Positions 19,564-49,774 of a stretch of DNA of 64,000 nucleotides are shown here, piece after piece (position 1 is the first letter of the stretch; each line of letters starts with the position of its first letter). The stretch is taken from positions 1-64,000 of the forward strand of contig NW_014013613.1 in the NCBI RefSeq assembly GCF_000611645.1, read 5' to 3'. Under the pieces are notes generated by a model. It was not told the origin of the DNA, did not search any database, and was given only the letters and a program-made list of their open reading frames with translations. Origin of the DNA: Monoraphidium neglectum (Eukaryota > Chlorophyta > Chlorophyceae > Sphaeropleales > Selenastraceae). The translations under genes and the position numbers were made by a program.

Positions 19564-21247
19564 GGGGCCGCCGCGCGCCAGCGTCGAGCGGCCGGCGGGC
19601 CTGGCTTCCTGCATGTGGGGGCAGCGCAGGCGCGTCCTTGCGTTGCACTCCTTGGCTCTGCGTGCGCTCGTTCGGCCTCGCCAGCTGCCGGCCTGGCTCT
19701 CCGCGCATCCCGCGGGTGCAAGCGTTGCGGCCCGCAATTACGGCTTGCGAGCTCTGCAGCGATTGCAGCTTGCCAATCAACCAACACACGCGCAGCAAGC
19801 CCTTGCGATTTCATAACTGCCAAGGAACTGCTTTTTCTTGCACAAATGTGCCCGTCATTGCTCTCGGGCGTCCCTCAGGCAATTTCATTGATCACGCCCC
19901 TCTGCCCGTTGGGCCTGTGGGAGTTGAGTTTTCGCACTGCAGCCCGGGCAACCCGGCTCGCTCCGCTTCACAGCACACCTGGCTGCCGCCAGCAGCAAGT
20001 GGATGGATGTGCACGGCTGTAGCCTATTCCGTGCCAGCAAATCGGCTCTCCAGAAGGGTGTTGGCGCCCCAACTCATTGAAGATGCACGCTTCCGGCCGT
20101 TGCTGCAACTTCCTGCCCGCTCTTGGATATGACACCGTGCCTTCAGGGCCTCGTGACTGCATTTGCTGACTCCACGTTAGGGTGACGTGCGTGGCGGGCA
20201 GCAGCCCGCAGCACACAGGGTGTGTTTGCTGCTGGTTGTCGCGAATCGTGCCGCCGGGCAGGCGTGCTGCCAGGTAATTGTGCTGCCGCGCACGCGCCGC
20301 GTTTCCCCGACTCCACAACAGGCGCGGGCCCCGCCCTGGCCTGCTGTCGGTTGCTTGAACCACCACGTTGAGCCGGCGTCCGCCTGCAACGCAACATGCC
20401 GCGGCCGCGAGACGCCCTGCCCCCTCCACACACAAACAACACCATACCCACAATAACACCACGCATCCGCGCTTCATAAGGCAAACACATCGACATGCAC
20501 GCCGCAGCGCTTGTTGCGAACAGAACTCACCCCCAATTGTGGTGGTTGGCACCTCGGCCGTGTTGATCTTGGCACGCTTGCGCTCGGTCTGTGTGAGTGT
20601 TCGTCGCATCTTCTTCAGACAATGTAATCAGGATCCGACGGGCTTCCCTCAAAGGGCCTGGTCGCTGCTGAGCCACGGGTTTGCACATAAGGTGTGGCAG
20701 GCGGGTCTCAGGGTTTGAGCAAGCTAGGCCTGGGACATGAACAGTGGGTCGCGGGCTTTTGTATGCACACGGTAGTTGAGCTGAGAGTCTGCAGGGGCGG
20801 TCTCATCAAGACGGCATCTTCTGATGCTGTGCATTTGCCAAAGAACGGGTATGTGGAAGAAGAGGGAGGATGAGATGGGAGAGTGTGGCATGGCGGCCGG
20901 ACTGGCGCGGCAGGGCAATCAACAGACGTTCCATGCCCGATCAGGGGAGTGACACGACCAGGGGCGGGGCAGGCGCATTCTCATTAACATAGAAATTTTG
21001 GTGTGCCGAGCCGTGCAAAAGCAGGCTCAGGCGAAGGGCCGAGCATACGCCGGACGACCGGCCGGCGGCGGCACGCATGCTGGGTTCGGTTGCCGCACCA
21101 ATGTGCCGTGCTGCGTTGGCGATGTCCAAGATACGTACATTTCATATAGAGCACCTGACCATGCGCTCTCGATCGCGGTCACCGGCCACGATCTTCAACT
21201 TTCGCAAAAGCGGCCCTGGACGATCTTAGCACAATTGCACCTGTGCG
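19564..21247. other. Intergenic, no supported gene
   Basis: This holds the 3' flank of the protease and the 5' flank of the dioxygenase gene. A 213-codon minus-strand frame (19968-20609) begins with a basic stretch and has a GTGAG donor after 25 codons, but no domain or convincing second exon was found, so it is not called. Confidence 0.45.
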
Positions 21248-23727
21248 ATGGATGATAAACATGGTTCAACGCATCATAGAATGACACCAGACCCCGACGC
21301 ACCCGCGGAGGAATCGTCGCCCGAGCATGAGCGTGGCGCCGCCGCTGGTCTCACCGCTAGCAGGCAAAAGCGCTCGCGCGCCGGCGTCAATTCGCGGCTG
21401 GCCGACTTTGCCATCGACATCGGCCACGAGCCGCAGTCGTGGGTTGACGAGTGGACGCCCAAGCGCGGCCGATGGGGCGGCCGCTGGGGGCGCGGCGGAG
21501 GCCGCGGCGGGCGCGGCGGAGGGTGGCGGCCAGAGGCTCACGCAGAGAACAAAGAGCGTGACAGGTGAGTAATGGTGAATCCGCACCTGTCTGAGCAGTT
21601 GGACTGCCCTGCAGTGTCCTGCATTCCGGGCGCTGGGCAAGGTACCCAGATCCTTGGTGTGGGCAGCCTTGCTGCCACCTTCCTGTTGGCTTCCACTCAG
21701 CTGACCCGAGTTCCTGTTCATGGCGAGCGGGTTGGCTCGCTCCTCTCCGCATGTAGTTGTTTATACTGCTTGGTGCCGGTGTCCAGACTCGCCCACGAAC
21801 CCGTTGCCCCTAGGTGGGAGGCGTGCGGCGCGTGCGGCTTCTGGACCAACCTCGGACGCGATGACACGGCGCCCTGCCCGCTGTGCGGCTCCGAGGTTGT
21901 CGTGACGGAGCACCACGACTTTGAGAGCTGGGCCCAGTGCGACGACTGCGGGAAATGGTGGGCGATCAGCCGCTGCCAAGTTTGCGCGACTCCAGTCCAG
22001 GCGGCGGGCGGCGGAGTTTGGGGCCATCCGGCTTGGTTCGCACTCTCTCAGTGCCCGCTCAGTGCACTCAGGGGCGGCTGGCATGCACAGGCCCGGGGAA
22101 AAGTCACTCGCGCGCTGACATCATCCCGCCTCTCCAGGCGTAACGTCCCAGACGAGACGGCCAGGCGGCTGGAGCGGGCGGGGGACGGGGCCAGGTGGAA
22201 CTGCAGCATGCTGAGAAAAGGTGGGGCTAAGAGTTGGCAAAAAGCATGGGGACCCCGCACTCGCTTCACGTCTCCTGGTGCAACGTGCCCACCCAAGCGT
22301 TGTGCTTAAGAGGCCTGTGCAGCAGCCAGCATCCCCCCACTGCTGCAAAAGCCAACTGCCCCACCCCTCATGCACACGCATCACGGCTGCCCTCGTGCGT
22401 GCGCCGCCTTGCAACCGCAGGCGCCACCTGCCGGACTTCCACCGCGGACTGGGCGGTCATTGCCCGAGACTCAGCCCTGAAGGAGCGCCTGCTGCAGCAC
22501 AGCGGCGGCCGCGGCGGCGCCGCCGCGGGCGCCCGCGGCGCCGGCCCATCTCCGCACTACGGGCCAGGGGGCCGCGGCGTGCACTTCATCGGCGGCCGCG
22601 GGCTCGCGCAGGCCGCGCGGCGCGCGGCCGAGGCGGCGGCGGCTGCTGGGGCGGACAGCGACGGCGGGGGCGACGGCGGCGGCGGCGACGAAATCAGCCC
22701 CCCGCTGCCCTTTGGCGAGCTGCGAGGTGGCACACCAGGCGTGGACGGTGGTGGCGACGATGCTCCAGGGGGCGCGCCCACGCCCTTGCAAGCAGCGGAT
22801 GTCGAGTGCGGCAGCCAGGGGGCGGATGGCGAGGACGGCGAGGGTGTGAAGATTCCTGCCGCAAGGGCTGATGATGGATGGCTGCCGGTGATGCGCGTGA
22901 GCGACGCTTGGGTGGTTCCGAAGCCGACTTTGCCACGGCTGCCGGAGACATCGGTGGCAGCGAAAGCAGCCGCGGCAGCAGATGCAGCAGCGGCAGGGGA
23001 GGCAGGCGAGGCAGTGGCGCTAGCTGAGGAAACAACAGCAGCAGAGGCAGCAGGGACACTGGAGGCAGGGTCCGCAGAGACGGCAGCGGCAGGGGAAGTA
23101 GCAGATATACCAGCGGCGGCAGGGCAGGCAGCGACTTTAGCGGAGGCAGGCTCGGCAGCAGGGCCAGAGCAGGCAGAGGCAGCAGAGGAGAAGACAGCGA
23201 CAGCGGTGGAGGCAGACGCGCCAGCGCAGATGGCAGTGGCGGTTTTAGCAGCGACAACAGCGGAAGCAGCGGCGACAGCACCCTCAGCGCAAGCAGCGGC
23301 GGCGACCGTCGCAGCAACAGCAACGGTTGAAGCGGCAGCGGTGGAGGCGGTGGATTCAGTAGATGCAAAGGAGGGCACTCTAGTTGCGGCGAACGAAAGG
23401 GCCACAACGGGGGCCGAGCCGCCCCCACATGAAAGCGGTGACAGCGCTGAAGCAGCACCAGCGGCGGTGTCGGCAGCAGCGGGCGCGACAGCAGCGACAG
23501 AGGCGTCGATGGCGGAGGGAGGGACAGCAGCAGCGGGGGCTGTCGGAGCTCATGACAGCGCAGTTGTTAGCGGGTGCACCACCAGCATTGCGCTACCAGC
23601 AGATGCTTGCAGCGGGTATGGGTCAGCTACCAGGGAACAGCAGGAGGAGCAGGTGCACACAGAGCAGGATCGGCGGCAGCAGCAGCAGCAGCAGCTTCAG
23701 CAGCAGCAGCTTCAGCAGCAGCTTCAA

Positions 23728-23786
<59 letters not shown>

Positions 23787-26700
23787 ACAACAGCAACAGG
23801 AGCAGCAGCCGCACCTGCAGCAGCAAGGGAGGGACCAGGAGATGGAGAAGCAGCGTAAGCAGGGGGAGCAGCAGGAGCAGCGGCAAGAGCAGCAGCAGGA
23901 GCAGCAGAAACAGCATGAACAGCAGAAACAGGAACAGGAACAAGAGCAGGAGCAGGTCATGCAGGTTGCAAAGCAGCAGCGACAGGATCAGCCTCCGCAG
24001 CAGCAGCAGCAATACGAGCCGGAGCACACGCATGAGAAGCGGCATCTGGAGCAGCAGCCGTCACCAGAGCAGGAGGAGCAATCAGTTCAGGAGCAGCAGC
24101 ACCCGGAGCCGCCGCGGCACGAGAACCAGCCGCAGCAGGAGCAAGCGGGGCGGCCTGACTGTGGGGAGAGCGGCAGCCAGGGGCGGCAGCACACGGCAGC
24201 AGCTGCGGCAGCACTGGAGGGGCCGGGCAGTGGCGGAGCCACCAGGGGTGCTGAGGAGCCGGCCGCAGCAACGACGACTGACGCTATGCGGAATCAGGAG
24301 GGCGACGCGAACGGCCGCACCTCTGACGCCGGCACTGCTACTGCCGACGCCGGCGTTGAGGCGCCGCGGCCGACCCGCCAGCAGGCCGCGCTGCAGCGCA
24401 AGCGGCGCCGTGACGAGACCCAAAAGGCAGCGCGCGCGGCAGCGGCTGAGCTCGAGCGCGCGCGGCGCAAGCTGCGGCTGTCGCACTCTGCCGCCGCGCG
24501 CGCGGCCAAGGCGGCGGCAGCGGCCGCTGGCAAGGACGGTGGCGGGCGCGCGGCGGCGGCCGCGCTGCGGGCGGCGCGCGCGGCGGTGCGAGACGCGGCG
24601 CGGCGGGTGCAGGAGGCAGAGGAAGGGGTTGTGCGGTGCGATGCGGCTGTGGAAGCCGAAGAGGCAGCTGCCAGGAAGGCGGAGGCCGAGGAGGCCATGC
24701 TGACGTCATCGAGTGACGAAGGCGAGCCATCGGACGACGACGACCAGGGCCGGGATGCCGGCGACGGCGGCTGCGGCGGCGTGGACGGCGAGCGTGCGCG
24801 CCTTTCGTCGGCGCCGCCGCCGCCGGCGGTGACGGGCGCGTGCTACGAAGGCGGCGTCGCCGTGGCGCCGCCGTCGACGGCGGCGGTGAAGGAGAGCTGG
24901 TTCCTGTGCGACCTCCCACAGATTGGGAAGTTCGAGGAGTATGTGGTCGGCCGGGACACACTCATTGCCGCCGAGGTCCTGGCTGCAGGTGAGTGATGAT
25001 TCTTTGAAGTAAGGCAGACGCGGACGTGGCATTTAAACCAAGTCGAAAGGCGACTTATCGTTAACAGGTGGCAATTGGCAGCGCAGCGGTGGAGATCTTT
25101 GCGTTGCAAGGACGGATCCCAGGCTGGGCCTTTACGTGTTGGCGGCCATCAGTAGGGCGCAGCAGCAGCACAACCCTTGCAGGCCCTGGCTATGCAGCAT
25201 GCCTCCAAACCCCCACCCGGCCGTCACGCGCCCAGCCGCTTTCCCCTCACCGATCTCCCACCTTTTCCCACCTTCTTGAAGGCTTCGACGCCGCCGACGC
25301 TTCGAGCGGGGAGCATGTGCTGAGCGTGCTGCCGCTGCCGCGGGCCGCGTTTGACAACCTGAGGCCCTTTGTTGACCGCTGCCTGGAACTTTTCAGGGTG
25401 GGGGAGCTGCCGCTGCTGACGGACGGTGAGGTCATCATCCGTCACTCAACAGCCACTGCTTGTCATCATTTGTCACCATTGGCCGCAGCATTGCCGGCCG
25501 ACCCTGGATCGCCTTGCTGTGCGTCAGCGCCCGACCCCGCAGGCTTTCGTATTATACCCAGCCCCCCTGCTGAGTGCGAGGAGCAGCCTGTGCAAGGCAG
25601 GCTGGGAATGCTGAAGCTGAAGTCGCCATGATTTGTGTCTCGCCGTGCAGGCCGCGTGAGCGCGGGGCCCGTGGACATCACCGCATTCCTGGGTCAAACC
25701 CACGTGCAGCAGCAGGTGCGCAGTCAGTGCGAGGCCGCGTCTTTGGGTGCAGGCGAGGGAGGGGCGGCGCCTTGACACGGCGACAGGTGGCTGGCGGGCG
25801 CCTGCGCACGGCCAGCTGCAGCTGGGCGCGGCTGTGGCCGTGCACGACCGGCCGAAGCCCTTGCGCGCACCTGGGTCCTGGCATTCGGGGCGTGCCCAAC
25901 ACTGCCTTGGTGGTACCCGCAGCGCAAGCGCGCGCCGCTAGTCGGGTGTCTTTGTTATCTCGGTGTCTTGGTGGTGAAAACCATGTTTTTTCAATCAAGT
26001 TTTTGTCGTTTTGGGGTGGCTTTCCAAAAAACATTTCACCGCAGGTCTACCAGGCCCTGCAGCGCCGCGAGGCGCGGCTGCGGCAGCAGGGGCTGCCGCT
26101 GCCCCGTAACCCCCACGACCACCTGGCGCATGGTGAGCGCCTGTGGGGGCAATTCTTTCAATGTACCGTTGAGCAATTTGGGAGCCGTGTGCCGCAAATG
26201 CTCGCAAATCGCATCACTCGTAAGCCCTGTCAATGCGAGCCCACCATGCTCTGGGCACGAACGCTGACTGCTCGGTCGGCCAACCCAGCGGCGCGCCGAC
26301 CGTGCCTCTCGCCGCGCCTGATGCGACGGCATCCTCTGCTTGCGACTCTTGACCTTCCACCTGCGCTCCCATCCTGTGCGCCTCAGTGGTACACCTGTCC
26401 CCCGACGGCCGCAAGGTGGGGATTAGAAAGGACGACCCTCTGCCTCTGCCTCCACCTCTCGACCCCTGCCTGGCATTGCCAAGCGTTGCATGTTGACACT
26501 CATCTCACATGTGCTTGCTCACCCCACGCTATTGCACTTTTGCGCAGAGTGCGGCCTGATATCAAAGCATCAGCCTGCCGTTGAACGTCATAACCTTCTG
26601 CTTTGCACAATCCCGCCAATTCCGAATGCTGGAACCCTTATCCCCCTCACCCTCAAAGGGGGATGCAGGCTCCCTACTAGCAACACCCCACAATCCTATC

Positions 26701-26819
26701 GCCCGCCAAGCGCCCAAACCACCAATCAGCATACGCTCTCACGCACACACCAGCCCGACCCACCATCCACCCACCCACCTGCGCATGCCCGCCCATCCAC
26801 ACACGCACACGTCCACGTG

Positions 26820-26858
<39 letters not shown>

Positions 26859-29276
26859 ACACACACAAAAACACACGCACACCCACCAACCCAGGTCTAT
26901 GTGGGTGAGGAGGGTGACGTCACCGCCCAGGGTGGCAGCATCATGGGCTTCGCCAAAAGCTGGAAGTCCGGCCCCATCCACAGCTGGAGCGGCGGCAAGA
27001 AGCTGGCCGACATGCCAGGTCGGACGGGCTTGGTTCAAGGGGCGCGGGTCGCGTGCAGGGCGGGCGAGCGCGGAGTGCATTCCGAAGACCGAATGAGCCC
27101 GGCTGCAAGGGGGCGCCGTTTGCAGTCAGTAGATCGCGTGTGTCAGGAGCATCTGCGGGAACAGCCTCTTCGTCTCCATCTCTGACATCCATGTTGTTTG
27201 TTGCAACACGGGCCCTCACCCTACTACTTTTACAATGGCATCCTTGCCACGCCCTCATAGGCGCGCGGCCCAACCAGGTCGTGCAGTCGAAGCTGTCCCT
27301 CCTGATGTCGGGGTGGGAGCACCTGCTGGGCGCCGCAGCAGACCTGGTTTGGGCCGCGTTTGCCGCGCACGACACCACCCGGGACGCCGCGCGGCGCATG
27401 CTCAACGTAAGTGGGGGACGCGCGGCAGCGGGGCCGTTGCAGTGCAGCGTCCAAGGGGTGGGGGCCGTTGCAGTGGGTGTGACGTCGAAGAAATGAAGGC
27501 CGTCCTCTCAAAAGGGCTCTCGCGCCTGGTGATCAAACCTTCACGATGCCGCCCTTGTACGTCAGCCCGACCCTGTCTTTGCAGCGTCGCCGGCCACACG
27601 CCGTCTTCACCTCAGCTTTCGCACCCGTGGCAACTCGTCTGTGCCCCCAAACCTGCCGCCCTTTGTCCCTCGCTCACCTGATCTTGCACGCCCACCCCCA
27701 GTTCATGTACGCGAGCGAGCTGCAGGCCTCATCACGGCTGGGCAGCAGCGGATGGAACGCGTACAGGTGACTCAGCCGCGCCGCATGCACCTCCCCACTA
27801 GCCCCTCCTTGTTTTTCCCGCCCCGAAACCCCTCCAGACCTGCCTCACACAGCCAGGGCTGGCGTGGCCGTGGCTGCAACTTTCCGACTGCTCGAGCTCT
27901 CCTTTCTGATGTCAATAGCTTCTCCCTCGCAAACTCAAGCCTTTGACTTGTGCAACACTCTGAGCAGACTCCCCCCAGCCTGACAAACTCGTACTCGGAG
28001 CTTTGCTTACACACTGAACAATCACACGCCTCACCCCGTTACCCCTCCCTAAGACTGATTACAAAAACGTGCTGACCCCACTTTGAATGAATGACCCCAC
28101 TGCAGCCTGAACATCAGCTACCGCACCGCGGTGCACCTGGACGGCAAGAACGTCCCGGGAAGCTACAGCGCATTAGTCATCCTGGAGGTTGGCCCGCAGC
28201 CGGCCTTTTGCGGCGGCGCGTACCTCCTGCCCCAGGTGCGCCTCTGCTTGTGCGGGCCGCGCCTGCTGCATCCCATTGAACATGGACACAAGGGTGTCAC
28301 TAGATTTTCGGTAGTCCCAGTATGAAGGAACCACCGATGATGGAGGTTGCTTGCCCCTGCCCCTGTTAGCCAAAACCATCCTCTTGACCTGCTCAATTGC
28401 CCTGCGAAGGCGCGCTTCAATCCCTCAATCCATTTGACGCACGGACCCTGATTGCAAAACCCTGAGCCCTGAGCCTCGAACCCTTAATCCTTCCCTGAAA
28501 ACCTCCCTTGCAGTACCGCCGCGCCCTGGACCTGAGGCAGGGCCTGGTGCTCTTCCACCGCAGCGGGGACGCGCCCTGCGGCCTGCACGGCAATGGGAAG
28601 CTGTGAGTGCCGGCATGCGGCTGAGATTGCTAATGAAGTGGTTGGGCCCCCCACCTCTGGTCCATCCCGGCGGACTGACCTGGAGGCGCTGCGCCCTGTT
28701 ACGTCGAGAAGTGCTTGAGATTGCTGCGGGCGTGGGATTGCGATAGTTGTTCAGCAACCAGCGCGAGCATGCGGCCTCGCGCATTTCACAGCCCCCACAA
28801 CGGCCTCCTCCTCAAACTTTCTGACCCTCTTCCCCTCGTTCCCCGTCCTTTTCACCCACGCTGCACGCTCTGCGCTTCAAACAATCAAAAGGTGGCGGCC
28901 CACCCCAGACCGCCACAGGGTGGCGATTGTCCTCTACCAGACTCAGCTGGGAAAGCCCACAGCAGCCGCACCCACGGCGCCCCTGGCGCCTGCAGCGCCT
29001 GCAGGTACGGCCGGCACCCCCGCAGCCGCAGCGGCCGGTGCCGCAGCCGAGGCCGCAGGCTGTCAGAAGGGAGGCGGCGGCGACGACGGCGGCGGCAACG
29101 ACGGCGGCGGCGACGACGGCGGCGGCGCCGATACGGATGGGGCGGCTGGTGGTGGCGGCGGCTACGCTGAGGCTGGCGATCGCGATGGTGGCGGGGCGAG
29201 CACGGGGGGCGCCGGCGGCGACGGGGGCGGCGGTGCTGGCTGCAGCGGCAGCGGGGCGGCTGGGGTTAGTTCCTGA
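21248..29276 (+). CDS. CW zinc finger - TET/JBP-type DNA dioxygenase fusion
   Basis: Exons in phase: 21248-21564, 21814-21979, 22091-22220, 22421-24988, 25282-25425, 25651-25715, 26045-26132, 26387-26415, 26895-27018, 27261-27406, 27702-27766, 28106-28235, 28514-28602, 28892-29276; about 1,480 residues. Order: Gly/Arg-rich N-terminus; zinc ribbon (CGAC..CPLC); CW finger (WAQCDDCGKWW ... WNCSM); an 856-codon exon that is Ala-rich, then Gln-rich, then charged; finally a 2OG-Fe(II) dioxygenase core. Catalytic signs: H-x-D in TAVHLDGKN (about residue 1290), GGAYLLPQYRRALDLRQG on the strand before the distal His in GLHGNG, and HRVAIVLYQ, matching the TET motif R-x-S-L-V-F-Y-Q that binds 2-oxoglutarate. 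The tail is Gly-rich. Known relatives oxidise 5-methylcytosine; Chlamydomonas CMD1 instead uses ascorbate. CW fingers often read methylated H3K4. Sequence alone does not fix the co-substrate. The split of the CW exon is uncertain: one frame is open from 21814 to 22220. Confidence 0.82.
23677..24010 (+). repeat. CAG/CAA repeat tract coding poly-Gln
   Basis: Interrupted CAG/CAA triplets encode long Gln runs and then Gln/Glu-rich sequence inside the large exon of the CW-TET/JBP gene. It is in frame and flanked by coding sequence on both sides. Confidence 0.95.
26387..26415 (+). other. 29-nt micro-exon of the CW-TET/JBP gene
   Basis: The exon encodes VVHLSPDGRK, is bounded by GCCTCAG and GTGGGG, and restores phase between 26045-26132 (phase 1) and 26895-27018 (phase 0). 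Confidence 0.65.
26829..26880. repeat. (CA)n microsatellite
   Basis: Sense-strand CA tract ending 14 nt before the acceptor of the CW-TET/JBP exon starting at 26895. Confidence 0.95.
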
Positions 29277-29804
29277 AGCCAGGGGGCTGGAGGAGGACGA
29301 GGAACGGGAGCAGCGGCGAGAGTGCTCCTGAACAGGCGCAAGGATGGGGCAGCGGCCCGGTAAATTGTTTTGAGGTTATCCTTTAGAGCGGTCCTGTTCT
29401 GTGCTTCAGTGAGTGTGTGCGAGCGTCTGAAGGCTGGATGATAGGTAGGCTCGCCGGCCATCCTCACAGAATTGTTTGCGTGTGTGTTCACTCACTGTTG
29501 TTGTTTGCCGTGCGACCAACGCTGGGCTGGCGCACGCGCACACTGCGCTGCGCACCAGCTGTATTCGCTCACTGGGGCGGCCCCGGCCGCCCCTGCAAAC
29601 GCTGTGGACCGCAGCGCTCGCAAGGCTGGACTGCCGTGCCCTTCGCATGAACCGGACTGCATATCATAAGGTCCTAAAGAAACGCCAAGATTTGCGAATG
29701 CCTTTCCTGGAAATGCAATAATCATCCGTTTGTATTGGTGTTTCGCGTATCCATTGTCTCATCCTGCAATGCTGCGCTTGGGGCGGCTCAGGCGCCTGGG
29801 TGAA
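29277..29804. other. 3' flank of the CW-TET/JBP gene
   Basis: Unique sequence between the stop codon and the left edge of the tandem duplication. No gene seen. Confidence 0.5.
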
Positions 29805-31080
29805 TAGTCACCAGTCACTCGCGCACCCTCTCTTCCAGCCTGCGGTTACAGAAGACAAGGCAACAAGGTTATGTCATGCCGCCGCGCAGCGTTTTGCAGC
29901 AAATGTGTGTGTGAAAAACCTCAGACACCAGCAGCCCGGCGAGGCGCACACACGCGCTTGTCGGTTGCATTTGGTGCCAGGAGGGCGGCAGAGGCGTTGG
30001 GTTCTTGCAAGGGGTGGTTGAAACAAGGGTTGCTCACAAGGCACAAGCGGATGCGAGGGGACAGGTACGCAGATGGTCGCGTGAGGGCACAAGGCAGGGT
30101 GCAAAGCAGAAGGTGAGCGGACGCGAGTGTCGTTGCCTGCAAGGGCGTTTGTTATTGCGTGAAGGGAGCGCTGGGACGAGCAAGTAGCATGGCAGGCCAT
30201 GCCAAGTGGGAGGGAGGCCAGGCGTGGTGGCAATCATGCTGATTTATTGGGTGTGGCGGAACAAAGCAAGGCTCAGAAATAGGGCCGGAGCCGCAGGCAA
30301 GTGATCGGCATGGGGAAGTCAAACAGAAATACAGGTGCAGGGGACAGGACCAGTGCAAAGGCCAAGGTGGGCAGGGGCGGAGGGTTCAGGTGATGAGACA
30401 GGTCCGAGGTTGCGTTGGTGCGTAGCTGCTGCCCCGAGAAGACAGGTGCGCGCGGGTGTGAGGCGATAACATTCCACATCGCGGGCGACCAGGGAGAGAG
30501 GCCTCCAGCAGACGCGCAGGTCGGGATGCAGCCTTTGCCCAGCCGCGCTATTCATGCCCAGGCGGCGCGGTACATGCGCCCGCCCTATGACAGCCATGCA
30601 GACGTGCGCCTCAGCGCAGAGCTGGCGTACTACTCGTGTGCTCCCGACGACGTTCGTGCGAACAAGGTTGCTGCTTCAGTTGGTGCAAGCAGGCGGCTCG
30701 CTTGATGGTCGCATGTTGCTGGGGTGAGGTTGATTGCTGCCAAAGTTGTGCGGTGTAGACCAAGGTCGTTTCTTGTATGCGTTTCAACCTAAGCGTAGGC
30801 TAAGCTTTGCTTAGGGTTGGAAGTTTCTTGAGGTAGACGCCGTTGAGGAAGGTCCTGCGGGGGGTGGATGGGTGATGGGTGCTCAGATCGAGGCTGGGCC
30901 AGGACGGACGAGTCTCGGGGGATGCATCGTCAGCCGTGCATGCGAGGCGGCCGCAAGTGGAATCAGCCAGAGCTCGTTGCAGTAAGGATAAATATGCTTT
31001 TTGTGCTCCCAACTTGCAGAGTCTGGTGCGCAGGCCGAGGATCGCATTTTATGACGAGAAAGCTCAGCGCGAGCGCGCAC
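29805..31080. other. 3' flank of gene A, duplicated
   Basis: Non-coding sequence downstream of the gene A stop. It is alignable to 39190-40471 downstream of gene B. No conserved reading frame was recognised. Confidence 0.5.
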
Positions 31081-48050: not shown

Positions 48051-49094
48051 CTACGCCTCCTCGTCGTCGCTGCTCGTCCGCTGCACCTGCATTAGCAACC
48101 GCCGCCGCTCCTCCGCCTCGTGCCGCCGCCGCCTGAAGAACGCGCGCAGCAGCTCGGCGCACTCGTCCCTCAAGAGGCCGCGGGTCACCCCCAAGGCCGG
48201 ATGGAACGGGTGGGGGCCCAGAGGCCGGATCGCGGCTGCGCCGAACGCGCCGTCGACAGCTGCGAAGGCGTCCCAAGGCTCCCCAGATTCGCCGCGCTGC
48301 TGCTGCCGTTGCGGCGGCTCGTGCTGCTGCTTCTGGTGCTGCCGTTGCCGCTGCTGCTGCTGCGGCGGCTGCTGCTGCTGCAACACCTGCGGGTGGTCCC
48401 CCCGCTGGTGTTGCTCGCAGCAACCGCCGCTACCGCCTGCCGTTGCGCCCTCTGCTGCGGCCGCTGCTGGGTAAGGCGGCAGCATGCGAATCCACCCGCC
48501 ATCGGCGCCGACCCTCGGGCTGCGCGCGCCGTAGCACACGCGCCGCAGCCGCGCGTTCAGGATCGCGCCGGCGCACATGGGGCACGGCTCGAGCGAAACG
48601 TACAGGGTGCAGCCCGCGAGGCGCCAGCCGCCGACGGCGGCGGCGGCCGCTTGGATGGCGACCAGCTCGGCATGGGCTAGTGGGTTCTGGGTCGCCTCTG
48701 TCATGTTGTGTGCTTCGGCGACGACTGAACCCTGGTCATCCACGACGACTGCGCCGACAGGCACCTCTCCGGCTTCGAAGGCGCGGCGCGCGAGCGCGAG
48801 CGCGCGCCGCATGTGGCAGGCGTCCGCATCTGAGCAGTCTGTGCTGCCGTCATGCGCGTTGCCGTCCGGCTTGACAGCGGCCGCGGCGCTGGTGTTGACC
48901 GCGGCGTGGGCGCTGCCGGCAATGCCAGTGCTGCAGCGCAGGCTGGCGGCGGCAGCGGCCTCAAGCGTGCCAGTGGCAGCCACGCGGGGCGATGAGCGCG
49001 CATGCCGAGCGCGCACGCCGCTGCGCCGCAGCCTGCCGCCGCAACCATAAGCGAGCACAAGGCTGGCTGCCCCTCGGCTCAGGGCTTTGCTCAT
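48051..49094 (-). CDS. TADA: tRNA-specific adenosine deaminase, TadA type, probably plastid
   Basis: Single-exon gene of 347 codons. It would deaminate the wobble adenosine of tRNA-Arg(ACG) to inosine, as TadA and plant chloroplast TADA do. Zinc and catalytic residues are visible: HAE at 141-143 (His ligand, proton-shuttling Glu) and PCPMC at 170-174 (Cys171 and Cys174 ligands). The end matches bacterial TadA (GVTRGLLRDECAELLRAFF). Residues 1-90 are Arg/Ala/Ser-rich without acidic clusters near the start, consistent with an organelle transit peptide. Between YGARSPRVGADGG and the C-terminal helices there is an insert of about 80 residues rich in Gln (about 205-290), absent from bacterial TadA. 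It is the only intronless gene here. Confidence 0.93.
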   Translation of the reverse strand: MSKALSRGAASLVLAYGCGGRLRRSGVRARHARSSPRVAATGTLEAAAAASLRCSTGIAGSAHAAVNTSAAAAVKPDGNAHDGSTDCSDADACHMRRALALARRAFEAGEVPVGAVVVDDQGSVVAEAHNMTEATQNPLAHAELVAIQAAAAAVGGWRLAGCTLYVSLEPCPMCAGAILNARLRRVCYGARSPRVGADGGWIRMLPPYPAAAAAEGATAGGSGGCCEQHQRGDHPQVLQQQQPPQQQQRQRQHQKQQHEPPQRQQQRGESGEPWDAFAAVDGAFGAAAIRPLGPHPFHPALGVTRGLLRDECAELLRAFFRRRRHEAEERRRLLMQVQRTSSDDEEA

Positions 49095-49774
49095 TGGGAA
49101 CTAAATGGCTAATACATTCAATATCATAGCGCGGACATTTATACTACGTGCGGCGACAACTCGCGAAGCCCTTGCTCGCGTGCACGCAATTTTATACGAT
49201 GTCGAGCAAACGACATGTGCTGGAGGCCTCTGCTATGCCTTCTGTGCCTATCGAACCAGGCATGTTTGACTCCAAATACAGTAGTGACCTCAGTGACTGA
49301 TCCAATCGTCACTGCCCGTTGCACATGCAGGTTCAACGAATGCGGCCATTGTGCGACACATCATACGATACCATGTCTCCTCTGTGCGGCACATGCGTTG
49401 GTATTACTTGCTTCAAGATGCTGGACAAACTCTTGACAATTGCATGATGTGCAACCACTCGTAGGCTGCTCGGCCAGCGCACAAAGCACATCTGGTTTGC
49501 TTGCAAGAACCCATCACACAAAGCGTTGATTGACAGTCAGCCGTGCAGTCGACAGACGCGTGGCAGCAGAAGCCAGCACTGCAAATGATCTGGAGAGACT
49601 CGCGATGAAGGGCGGTCAAAGGACGGATAAGCGCGCGCAGGAAGCCGCAAAGGCTGCAGCCTGTGCATGACACAATTTTGAGGGAAGCATGTGCGATCAA
49701 GGCCCAGCTTGTTGACAAGTCCGACAGGATGCAGCACAGTTTGGTAGTTGTTAGCGAGGCGAGGGGCAGGCCGG
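49095..49774. other. Intergenic between deaminase and dienelactone hydrolase genes
   Basis: Deaminase 5' flank and hydrolase 3' flank. Nothing else recognised. Confidence 0.5.

Follow-up and report, generated by a model that had tools for sequence, protein, structure and literature searches.

We analysed the first 64,000 nucleotides of contig NW_014013613.1 of the green alga Monoraphidium neglectum (hereafter the window), part of a 34.6-Mb assembly of 1632 contigs. On the plus strand, the window contains a gene that encodes, from N- to C-terminus, a zinc ribbon, a CW finger, a low-complexity linker of 812 residues and a TET/JBP-type dioxygenase core. We are nearly certain that this is a CW–TET/JBP-type fusion. 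The coding span starts with an ATG at 21248 and ends with a TGA at 29276, exactly as in the original prediction, and the reading frame is intact across 14 exons (21248-21564, 21814-21957, 22138-22220, 22421-24988, 25282-25425, 25651-25715, 26045-26132, 26387-26415, 26895-27018, 27261-27406, 27702-27766, 28106-28235, 28514-28602 and 28892-29276). The resulting protein has 1458 residues and no internal stops. All 13 introns have GT-AG borders and sizes of 180 to 479 bases. The GC content of the gene is 0.78, 0.57 and 0.76 at codon positions 1, 2 and 3, and 0.605 in the introns. The linker (22453..24888, plus strand) is rich in Ala, Gln, Gly and Glu, contains polyglutamine and lies within a single exon. 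The window has 1843 N bases, none of them within 20500-30000. A (CA)n microsatellite is present immediately upstream of exon 9, at about 26828-26868.

The zinc ribbon is CW-like (residues 107-135; 21815..21901, plus strand) and was recognised by its pattern, W-x2-C-x2-C-x2-W followed by C-x2-C. The CW finger proper (residues 145-192; 21929..22452, plus strand) is split by introns 21958-22137 and 22221-22420, and its key residues are W145, C148, C151, W154, W174, C176, C185 and W192. Residues 145-187 matched the Pfam zf-CW profile with 36.4 bits (cut-off 27.5; E 5.4e-9), which bears out the CW-type finger that had been proposed near the N-terminus. The hallmark of the domain, four cysteines and three tryptophans, was found in full (C148, C151, C176 and C185; W145, W154 and W174).

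The intron-2 donor at 21957 was adopted after comparison with homologues, because relatives space the KW and W-x-C elements of the CW domain by 16-19 residues and this donor yields 19 residues in the window protein. As a consequence, the zf-CW score depends in part on the homologues. Of three earlier versions of this stretch, one had no zf-CW match and the other two scored 16.6 and 10.5 bits. The choice of donor affects neither the Trp-Cys pattern 5' of intron 2 nor the W-x-C ... C pattern 3' of it. A donor at 21979 was rejected as out of frame. A donor at 22050, retention of the intron and an acceptor at 22091 were rejected too, as they left the CW domain broken or with an insert.

The solved structures closest to the finger were the CW domains of ASHH2 (best match, E 2.8e-4) and MORC3. 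In CW domains, two tryptophans form the methyl-lysine pocket while a third lies in the domain core, as described in excerpts of PMC9043364. In ZCWPW1, W303 is among the residues altered in a mutant that no longer reads trimethylated histone H3 lysine 4 (H3K4me3; excerpts of PMC7314539), and in the ZCWPW1 sequence this residue is found seven positions past the last cysteine (+7). A pattern search counted 21 CW units in the window protein and the 12 CW-bearing relatives described below. Thirteen of these, comprising every single or TET-proximal unit, have a Trp at +7 after the fourth cysteine, W192 of the window protein included. In seven of the remaining eight units the Trp is at +6, and the first unit of P0019 has no such Trp. 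We predict that the window finger is a reader of methylated H3K4, probably of the me3 type. It shares with ZCWPW1 the succession W-x2-C ... KW ... W-x-C ... C-x6-W, which places the Trp at +7, but A190 replaces E301 of ZCWPW1 and the loop lengths are unequal. A search of the window protein for the PWWP domain that ZCWPW1 also has came up empty. ASHH2, the best solved match, is a reader of H3K4me1, and its pocket is completed by a C-terminal helix according to the excerpted PMC9043364.

The dioxygenase core, including an N-terminal extension, spans residues 1005-1348 (24889..28943, plus strand), from the end of exon 4 to the start of exon 14. It matched Pfam Tet_JBP with an E-value of 7.2e-5 and 22.5 bits, below the cut-off of 34.9, and this was its sole Pfam match at E ≤ 1. 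Thus, of the two profiles expected from the original prediction, zf-CW was recovered above its cut-off and Tet_JBP only as a sub-threshold match; the three motifs from which a TET/JBP core had been proposed are all present. VHLD contains two iron ligands and is followed by the equivalent of TET2 N1387 (H1268-x-D1270-x2-N1273; 28134..28151), and GLHGNG contains the distal iron ligand H1326 (28586..28588). HRVAIVLYQ (R1340-Q1347) belongs to the segment R1340-x5-Y1346-Q-T1348 (28917..28943), which provides the 2-oxoglutarate arginine, the base-stacking aromatic residue and a threonine at the site of TET2 H1904. All three lie on the plus strand. W192 and H1268 are some 1,080 residues apart, close to the 1,100 or so that had been expected between finger and core.

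Database searches returned 27 distinct related proteins (P0001-P0027), of which 20 were scanned with Pfam. We aligned the core of the window protein with those of 20 relatives, omitting P0009, P0010, P0013, P0014, P0021, P0022 and P0023. H1268, D1270, K1272 and N1273 were present in all 21 rows and H1326 in 20, the remaining row having a gap. R1340, Y1346 and T1348 were each present in 19 rows; at each position, one of the two remaining rows (P0020 and P0011) is gapped and one carries a different residue. Hence both the iron triad H-x-D ... H and the 2-oxoglutarate arginine with its aromatic residue at +6 are kept in the alignment. Identity to database homologues was 33-61% in the 10 matches, out of 14, that covered at least 45% of the core. 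Tet_JBP matched 19 of the 20 scanned relatives at E ≤ 0.1 (range 1.2e-8 to 0.035), and the source database, using a newer Tet_JBP model, annotates the domain in eight of the 27 (P0003, P0004, P0005, P0006, P0008, P0015, P0026 and P0027). A scan of four proteins with NCBIfam gave no matches. Motif spacing and sub-threshold profile matches together suggest membership of the TET/JBP family.

The zf-CW profile was found in 12 of the 20 scanned relatives, above the cut-off in 11, and it shares a chain with Tet_JBP in 11 of these 12; the exception, P0021, ends before the core. One CW unit, as in the window protein, was seen in P0001 (Apatococcus lobatus), P0021 (A. fuscideae; 255 residues; 25.6 bits, below the cut-off), P0017 (Trebouxia sp. 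C0004), whose N-terminus starts inside an apparent further unit, and the metagenome protein P0004. The other eight have two units: P0015 (Coccomyxa elongata), P0025 (Coccomyxa sp. Obi), P0024 ([Myrmecia] bisecta), P0019 (record tag Botrbrau1, which we read as Botryococcus braunii) and P0016, P0018, P0026 and P0027 from metagenomes. The CW-bearing relatives therefore come from seven named algae, one of them named via its record tag, and from metagenomes. A taxonomy lookup placed A. lobatus, B. braunii, C. elongata and Trebouxia sp. C0004 in the Trebouxiophyceae. In 11 of the 12, a ribbon-type unit begins 38-50 residues ahead of the TET-proximal CW unit; it is degenerate in P0019 (Y for W), and none was seen in P0021. 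A second Botrbrau1 protein, P0008, has no CW domain but carries a C-terminal chromodomain instead (25.1 bits in the whole protein, exactly the cut-off, and 31.2 bits in the excised piece), and is thus a natural case of this catalytic family with its reader exchanged.

We compared ten of the 27 relatives with the window by tblastn. Eight (P0001, P0004, P0015, P0016, P0017, P0024, P0025 and P0026) matched both exon 2, which encodes the ribbon and the first half of the CW finger, and the core exons, with hits that follow the exon order on a single strand. At E 0.01, P0019, which has CW units, and P0008, which has none, matched only core exons. These searches supported exons 2, 4 (its end), 5, 6, 9, 10, 12, 13 and 14, while exons 1, 7, 8 and 11 remained unmatched. 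Four metagenome relatives (P0004, P0016, P0018 and P0027) hold both domains within 587-900 residues, and, going by their protein records, the longest contigs behind them measure 3.0-5.3 kb, so that introns would have little space. The single-gene fusion that had been proposed is thereby supported. It is not unique to this genome: the original prediction knew of no described CW–TET/JBP protein, but the databases do hold such proteins, under names such as 'hypothetical protein' or 'CW-type domain-containing protein'. In the literature searched, which did not extend to the main TET/JBP surveys by Iyer and colleagues, no listed paper was seen to connect a TET/JBP core with a CW domain. Two papers whose titles concern stemness and cancer therapy (PMC13144531 and PMC12271501) contain both 'CW-type zinc finger' and dioxygenase terms.

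A search of the algal genome for paralogues, using the core and P0015, matched only the CW–TET/JBP gene itself. A pattern search of viral_contigs matched eight stretches, none of which encodes a relative. In a tree of 19 cores, several of them cut crudely, 10 of 16 inner branches were unresolved, the window protein was not placed and P0012 had a very long branch. Two further features of the relatives may be mentioned. P0026 (about residues 96-205) and P0027 (about residues 7-118) have an N-terminal domain of PWWP/Tudor-like appearance ahead of their two ribbon–CW units; Pfam gave no match to this part of P0026 and only Tudor_3 at E 0.05 for P0027, and the PDB gave no convincing match for P0026. 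The model of P0024 runs on into a long C-terminal part (about residues 720-1556) with a sub-threshold leucine-rich repeat match, perhaps a neighbouring gene that was joined to it.

A ribbon–CW module and a TET/JBP-type core thus occupy one frame in the window, and 11 relatives have both in one polypeptide; the catalytic residues are conserved. We favour, with moderate confidence, the interpretation that the gene encodes a chromatin-directed DNA-base dioxygenase, guided by methylated H3K4 and oxidising 5-methylcytosine (5mC) in a 2-oxoglutarate-dependent manner. The CW finger would anchor the enzyme by gripping the methylated Lys4 of H3 tails in a cage formed by W145, W154 and W192, and the long flexible linker would give the core reach to nearby DNA. 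There, the core would flip out a methylated pyrimidine, most likely 5mC, and oxidise the methyl group, using Fe(II), O2 and 2-oxoglutarate. H3K4-methylated regions would in this way be kept low in 5mC or be tagged with an oxidised base. Where a member has a second CW unit or a chromodomain, additional or different readers would be steering the same enzyme. The chromatin-directed role is suggested by the third cage-type Trp, the duplication of the CW unit in eight of the 12 CW-bearing relatives and the chromodomain variant.

Several observations weigh against this interpretation. Tet_JBP scored below the Pfam cut-off not only in the window protein but in all 20 scanned relatives (best score 34.8 versus 34.9). 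Profile searches of solved structures returned CW domains and no TET enzyme, and hhalign with pieces of TET2 reported a probability of 11%, with the tail motif in the expected register; the direct connection to TET2 is therefore weak. In TET2 and NgTET1 an arginine holds the C1 carboxylate of 2-oxoglutarate, and no counterpart of it could be assigned in the core. T1348, which stands where the four studied TETs have His or Arg, could mean that another base is the target. Finally, no catalytic DNMT1-type exon was seen in the genome, where PF00145 gave four matches at E-values up to 10, only one of them above the cut-off.

Two separate DNMT1-RFD matches were found on the minus strand of another contig (C1210, 375-521 and 3340-3522), scoring 28.2 and 22.5 bits (cut-off 22). 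Plant MET1 likewise has two RFD domains. These matches suggest that the host has a methyltransferase of the DNMT1/MET1 type and hence 5mC. The observed/expected ratio of CpG was 0.91 across the window as a whole and 0.77 for the introns of the gene, and that of TpG+CpA was 1.44 and 1.41, respectively; these values fit mild decay of 5mC and are weak evidence for it. Neither PF12851 nor PF07496 gave any match in the genome, not even to the CW–TET/JBP gene itself, so exon-by-exon family searches, including those for PF00145, DNMT1-RFD and SET, are weak in this genome.

The first alternative keeps the fusion but gives its core a different target base or a different product, for instance 5-hydroxymethyluracil from thymine, demethylation of N6-methyladenine (6mA), or a hypermodified base. 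We consider this unlikely; the case for it is that the base-contacting residue is a threonine. At this position, eight residues past the 2-oxoglutarate arginine (R+8), Thr is found in 19 of the 21 rows, as against H1904 in TET2, H297 in NgTET1, R418 in CMD1 and R393 in CcTet; His or Arg is thus seen in the four studied enzymes compared here, and none of our sources makes it a rule for the family. Changes in the pocket of CcTet, a mushroom oxygenase of 5mC and 6mA, shift its choice of base (excerpts of PMC11040006). On the other hand, N1273 corresponds to TET2 N1387, which contacts N4 of 5mC, and the DNMT1-RFD domains suggest that 5mC exists in the host.

As in TET2 and NgTET1, there is a Tet_JBP match (here sub-threshold), H-x-D-x2-N (D in NgTET1), a distal His and R-x5-Y/F. 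Written from the chain letters, TET2 reads H-x-D-x2-N and H-x14-R-x5-Y-Q-H, the window protein H-x-D-x2-N and H-x13-R-x5-Y-Q-T; apart from the Thr, the difference is one residue between distal His and Arg. Animal TETs have CXXC and Cys-rich parts where the window protein has its ribbon–CW reader. The spacing of H-x-D and of R-x5-aromatic agrees with TET2, with CMD1 (H345, D347, D350, H397, R410, F416 and R418; excerpts of PMC7854593) and with CcTet (H326, D328, G331, R385, F391 and R393; excerpts of PMC11040006), although Gly331 and Arg393 of CcTet are Asn and Thr here. JBP2 also joins a TET/JBP core to a chromatin module, according to the excerpted PMC11065753, but this module is a SWI2/SNF2 domain, that is, a remodelling ATPase, in place of a histone-tail finger.

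A second alternative, which we regard as improbable, is that a CW-recruited, TET/JBP-related core oxidises a substrate other than DNA, such as RNA or a chromatin protein. The 2-oxoglutarate oxygenase superfamily acts on many substrates, and the Tet_JBP match is sub-threshold in every member scanned. However, no other Pfam family matched the window core at E ≤ 1, and the family conserves D+3 and R+6, two positions of the base pocket.

More improbable still is a CMD1-type enzyme, which would use ascorbate to make 5-glyceryl-methylcytosine (5gmC), as had been raised in the original prediction. CMD1 of Chlamydomonas is a TET homologue and, like the window protein, comes from a green alga; it has H-x-D...H and R-x5-F (excerpts of PMC7854593). 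We placed its ascorbate-pocket positions in the alignment by ungapped spacing from the motifs, which was not feasible for R244 and H249. Ser is found at the S335 position in 17 of the 21 rows, but the four other pocket positions compared are changed: T337 is Asn and W358 is Leu or Val in all rows, T399 is Asn in 20 (one gap), and S414 is Val or Ile in 19. D350 is Asn in all rows, as in TET2. In CMD1, T337A, W358A and T399A each abolish activity, and D350N caused complete loss in one assay and left very little product in another (excerpts of PMC7854593, which mention no reader domain for CMD1). As most of the CMD1 ascorbate ligands are replaced in the family, 2-oxoglutarate chemistry is predicted for the window enzyme. 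It is scarcely credible that two adjacent genes were misjoined or that the locus is a pseudogene, since, in spite of the 812-residue low-complexity linker between the domains, the relatives carry both domains in one polypeptide (11 proteins, among them the four compact metagenome ones), the exon matches of eight of the ten compared are ordered and on the same strand, and every exon of the window gene is in frame with its catalytic residues intact.

In animals, H3K4 methylation is tied to low DNA methylation via several separate proteins. If our preferred reading, the H3K4me-guided 5mC dioxygenase, is true, one protein combining a reader of H3K4me type with an oxidase of DNA bases would directly link a histone mark to a DNA base in several green-algal genera. 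More tentatively, these proteins may form a family of green algae not described before: DNA-base oxidases guided by histone marks, with exchangeable readers on one TET/JBP core that may make a different modified base. The readers would comprise a chromodomain, one or two ribbon–CW units and, perhaps, a domain of PWWP/Tudor type, and the predicted base pocket would have Asn and Thr, unlike the four studied TETs compared. The occurrence of CW, double CW and chromodomain on one catalytic family amounts to a set of natural reader swaps, and the altered base-contact residue may lead to another DNA modification.

Elsewhere in the genome, the only PF00145 match above the cut-off (27.1 bits) is a DNA cytosine-methylase-like gene, L011, on the minus strand of contig C739 (C739:17121-17483); it looked unlike DNMT1, and its setting appeared mobile or virus-like. 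Five SET matches were also found, and these count in favour of the preferred reading. Around the fusion gene, Pfam was run on 20 of the 74 open reading frames of at least 200 residues in the window, one of which had matches. This frame, at 48054-49100 on the minus strand, has a deaminase domain (MafB19-deam, E 9.3e-32; dCMP_cyt_deam_1, E 8.4e-29) and possibly encodes a tRNA adenosine deaminase.

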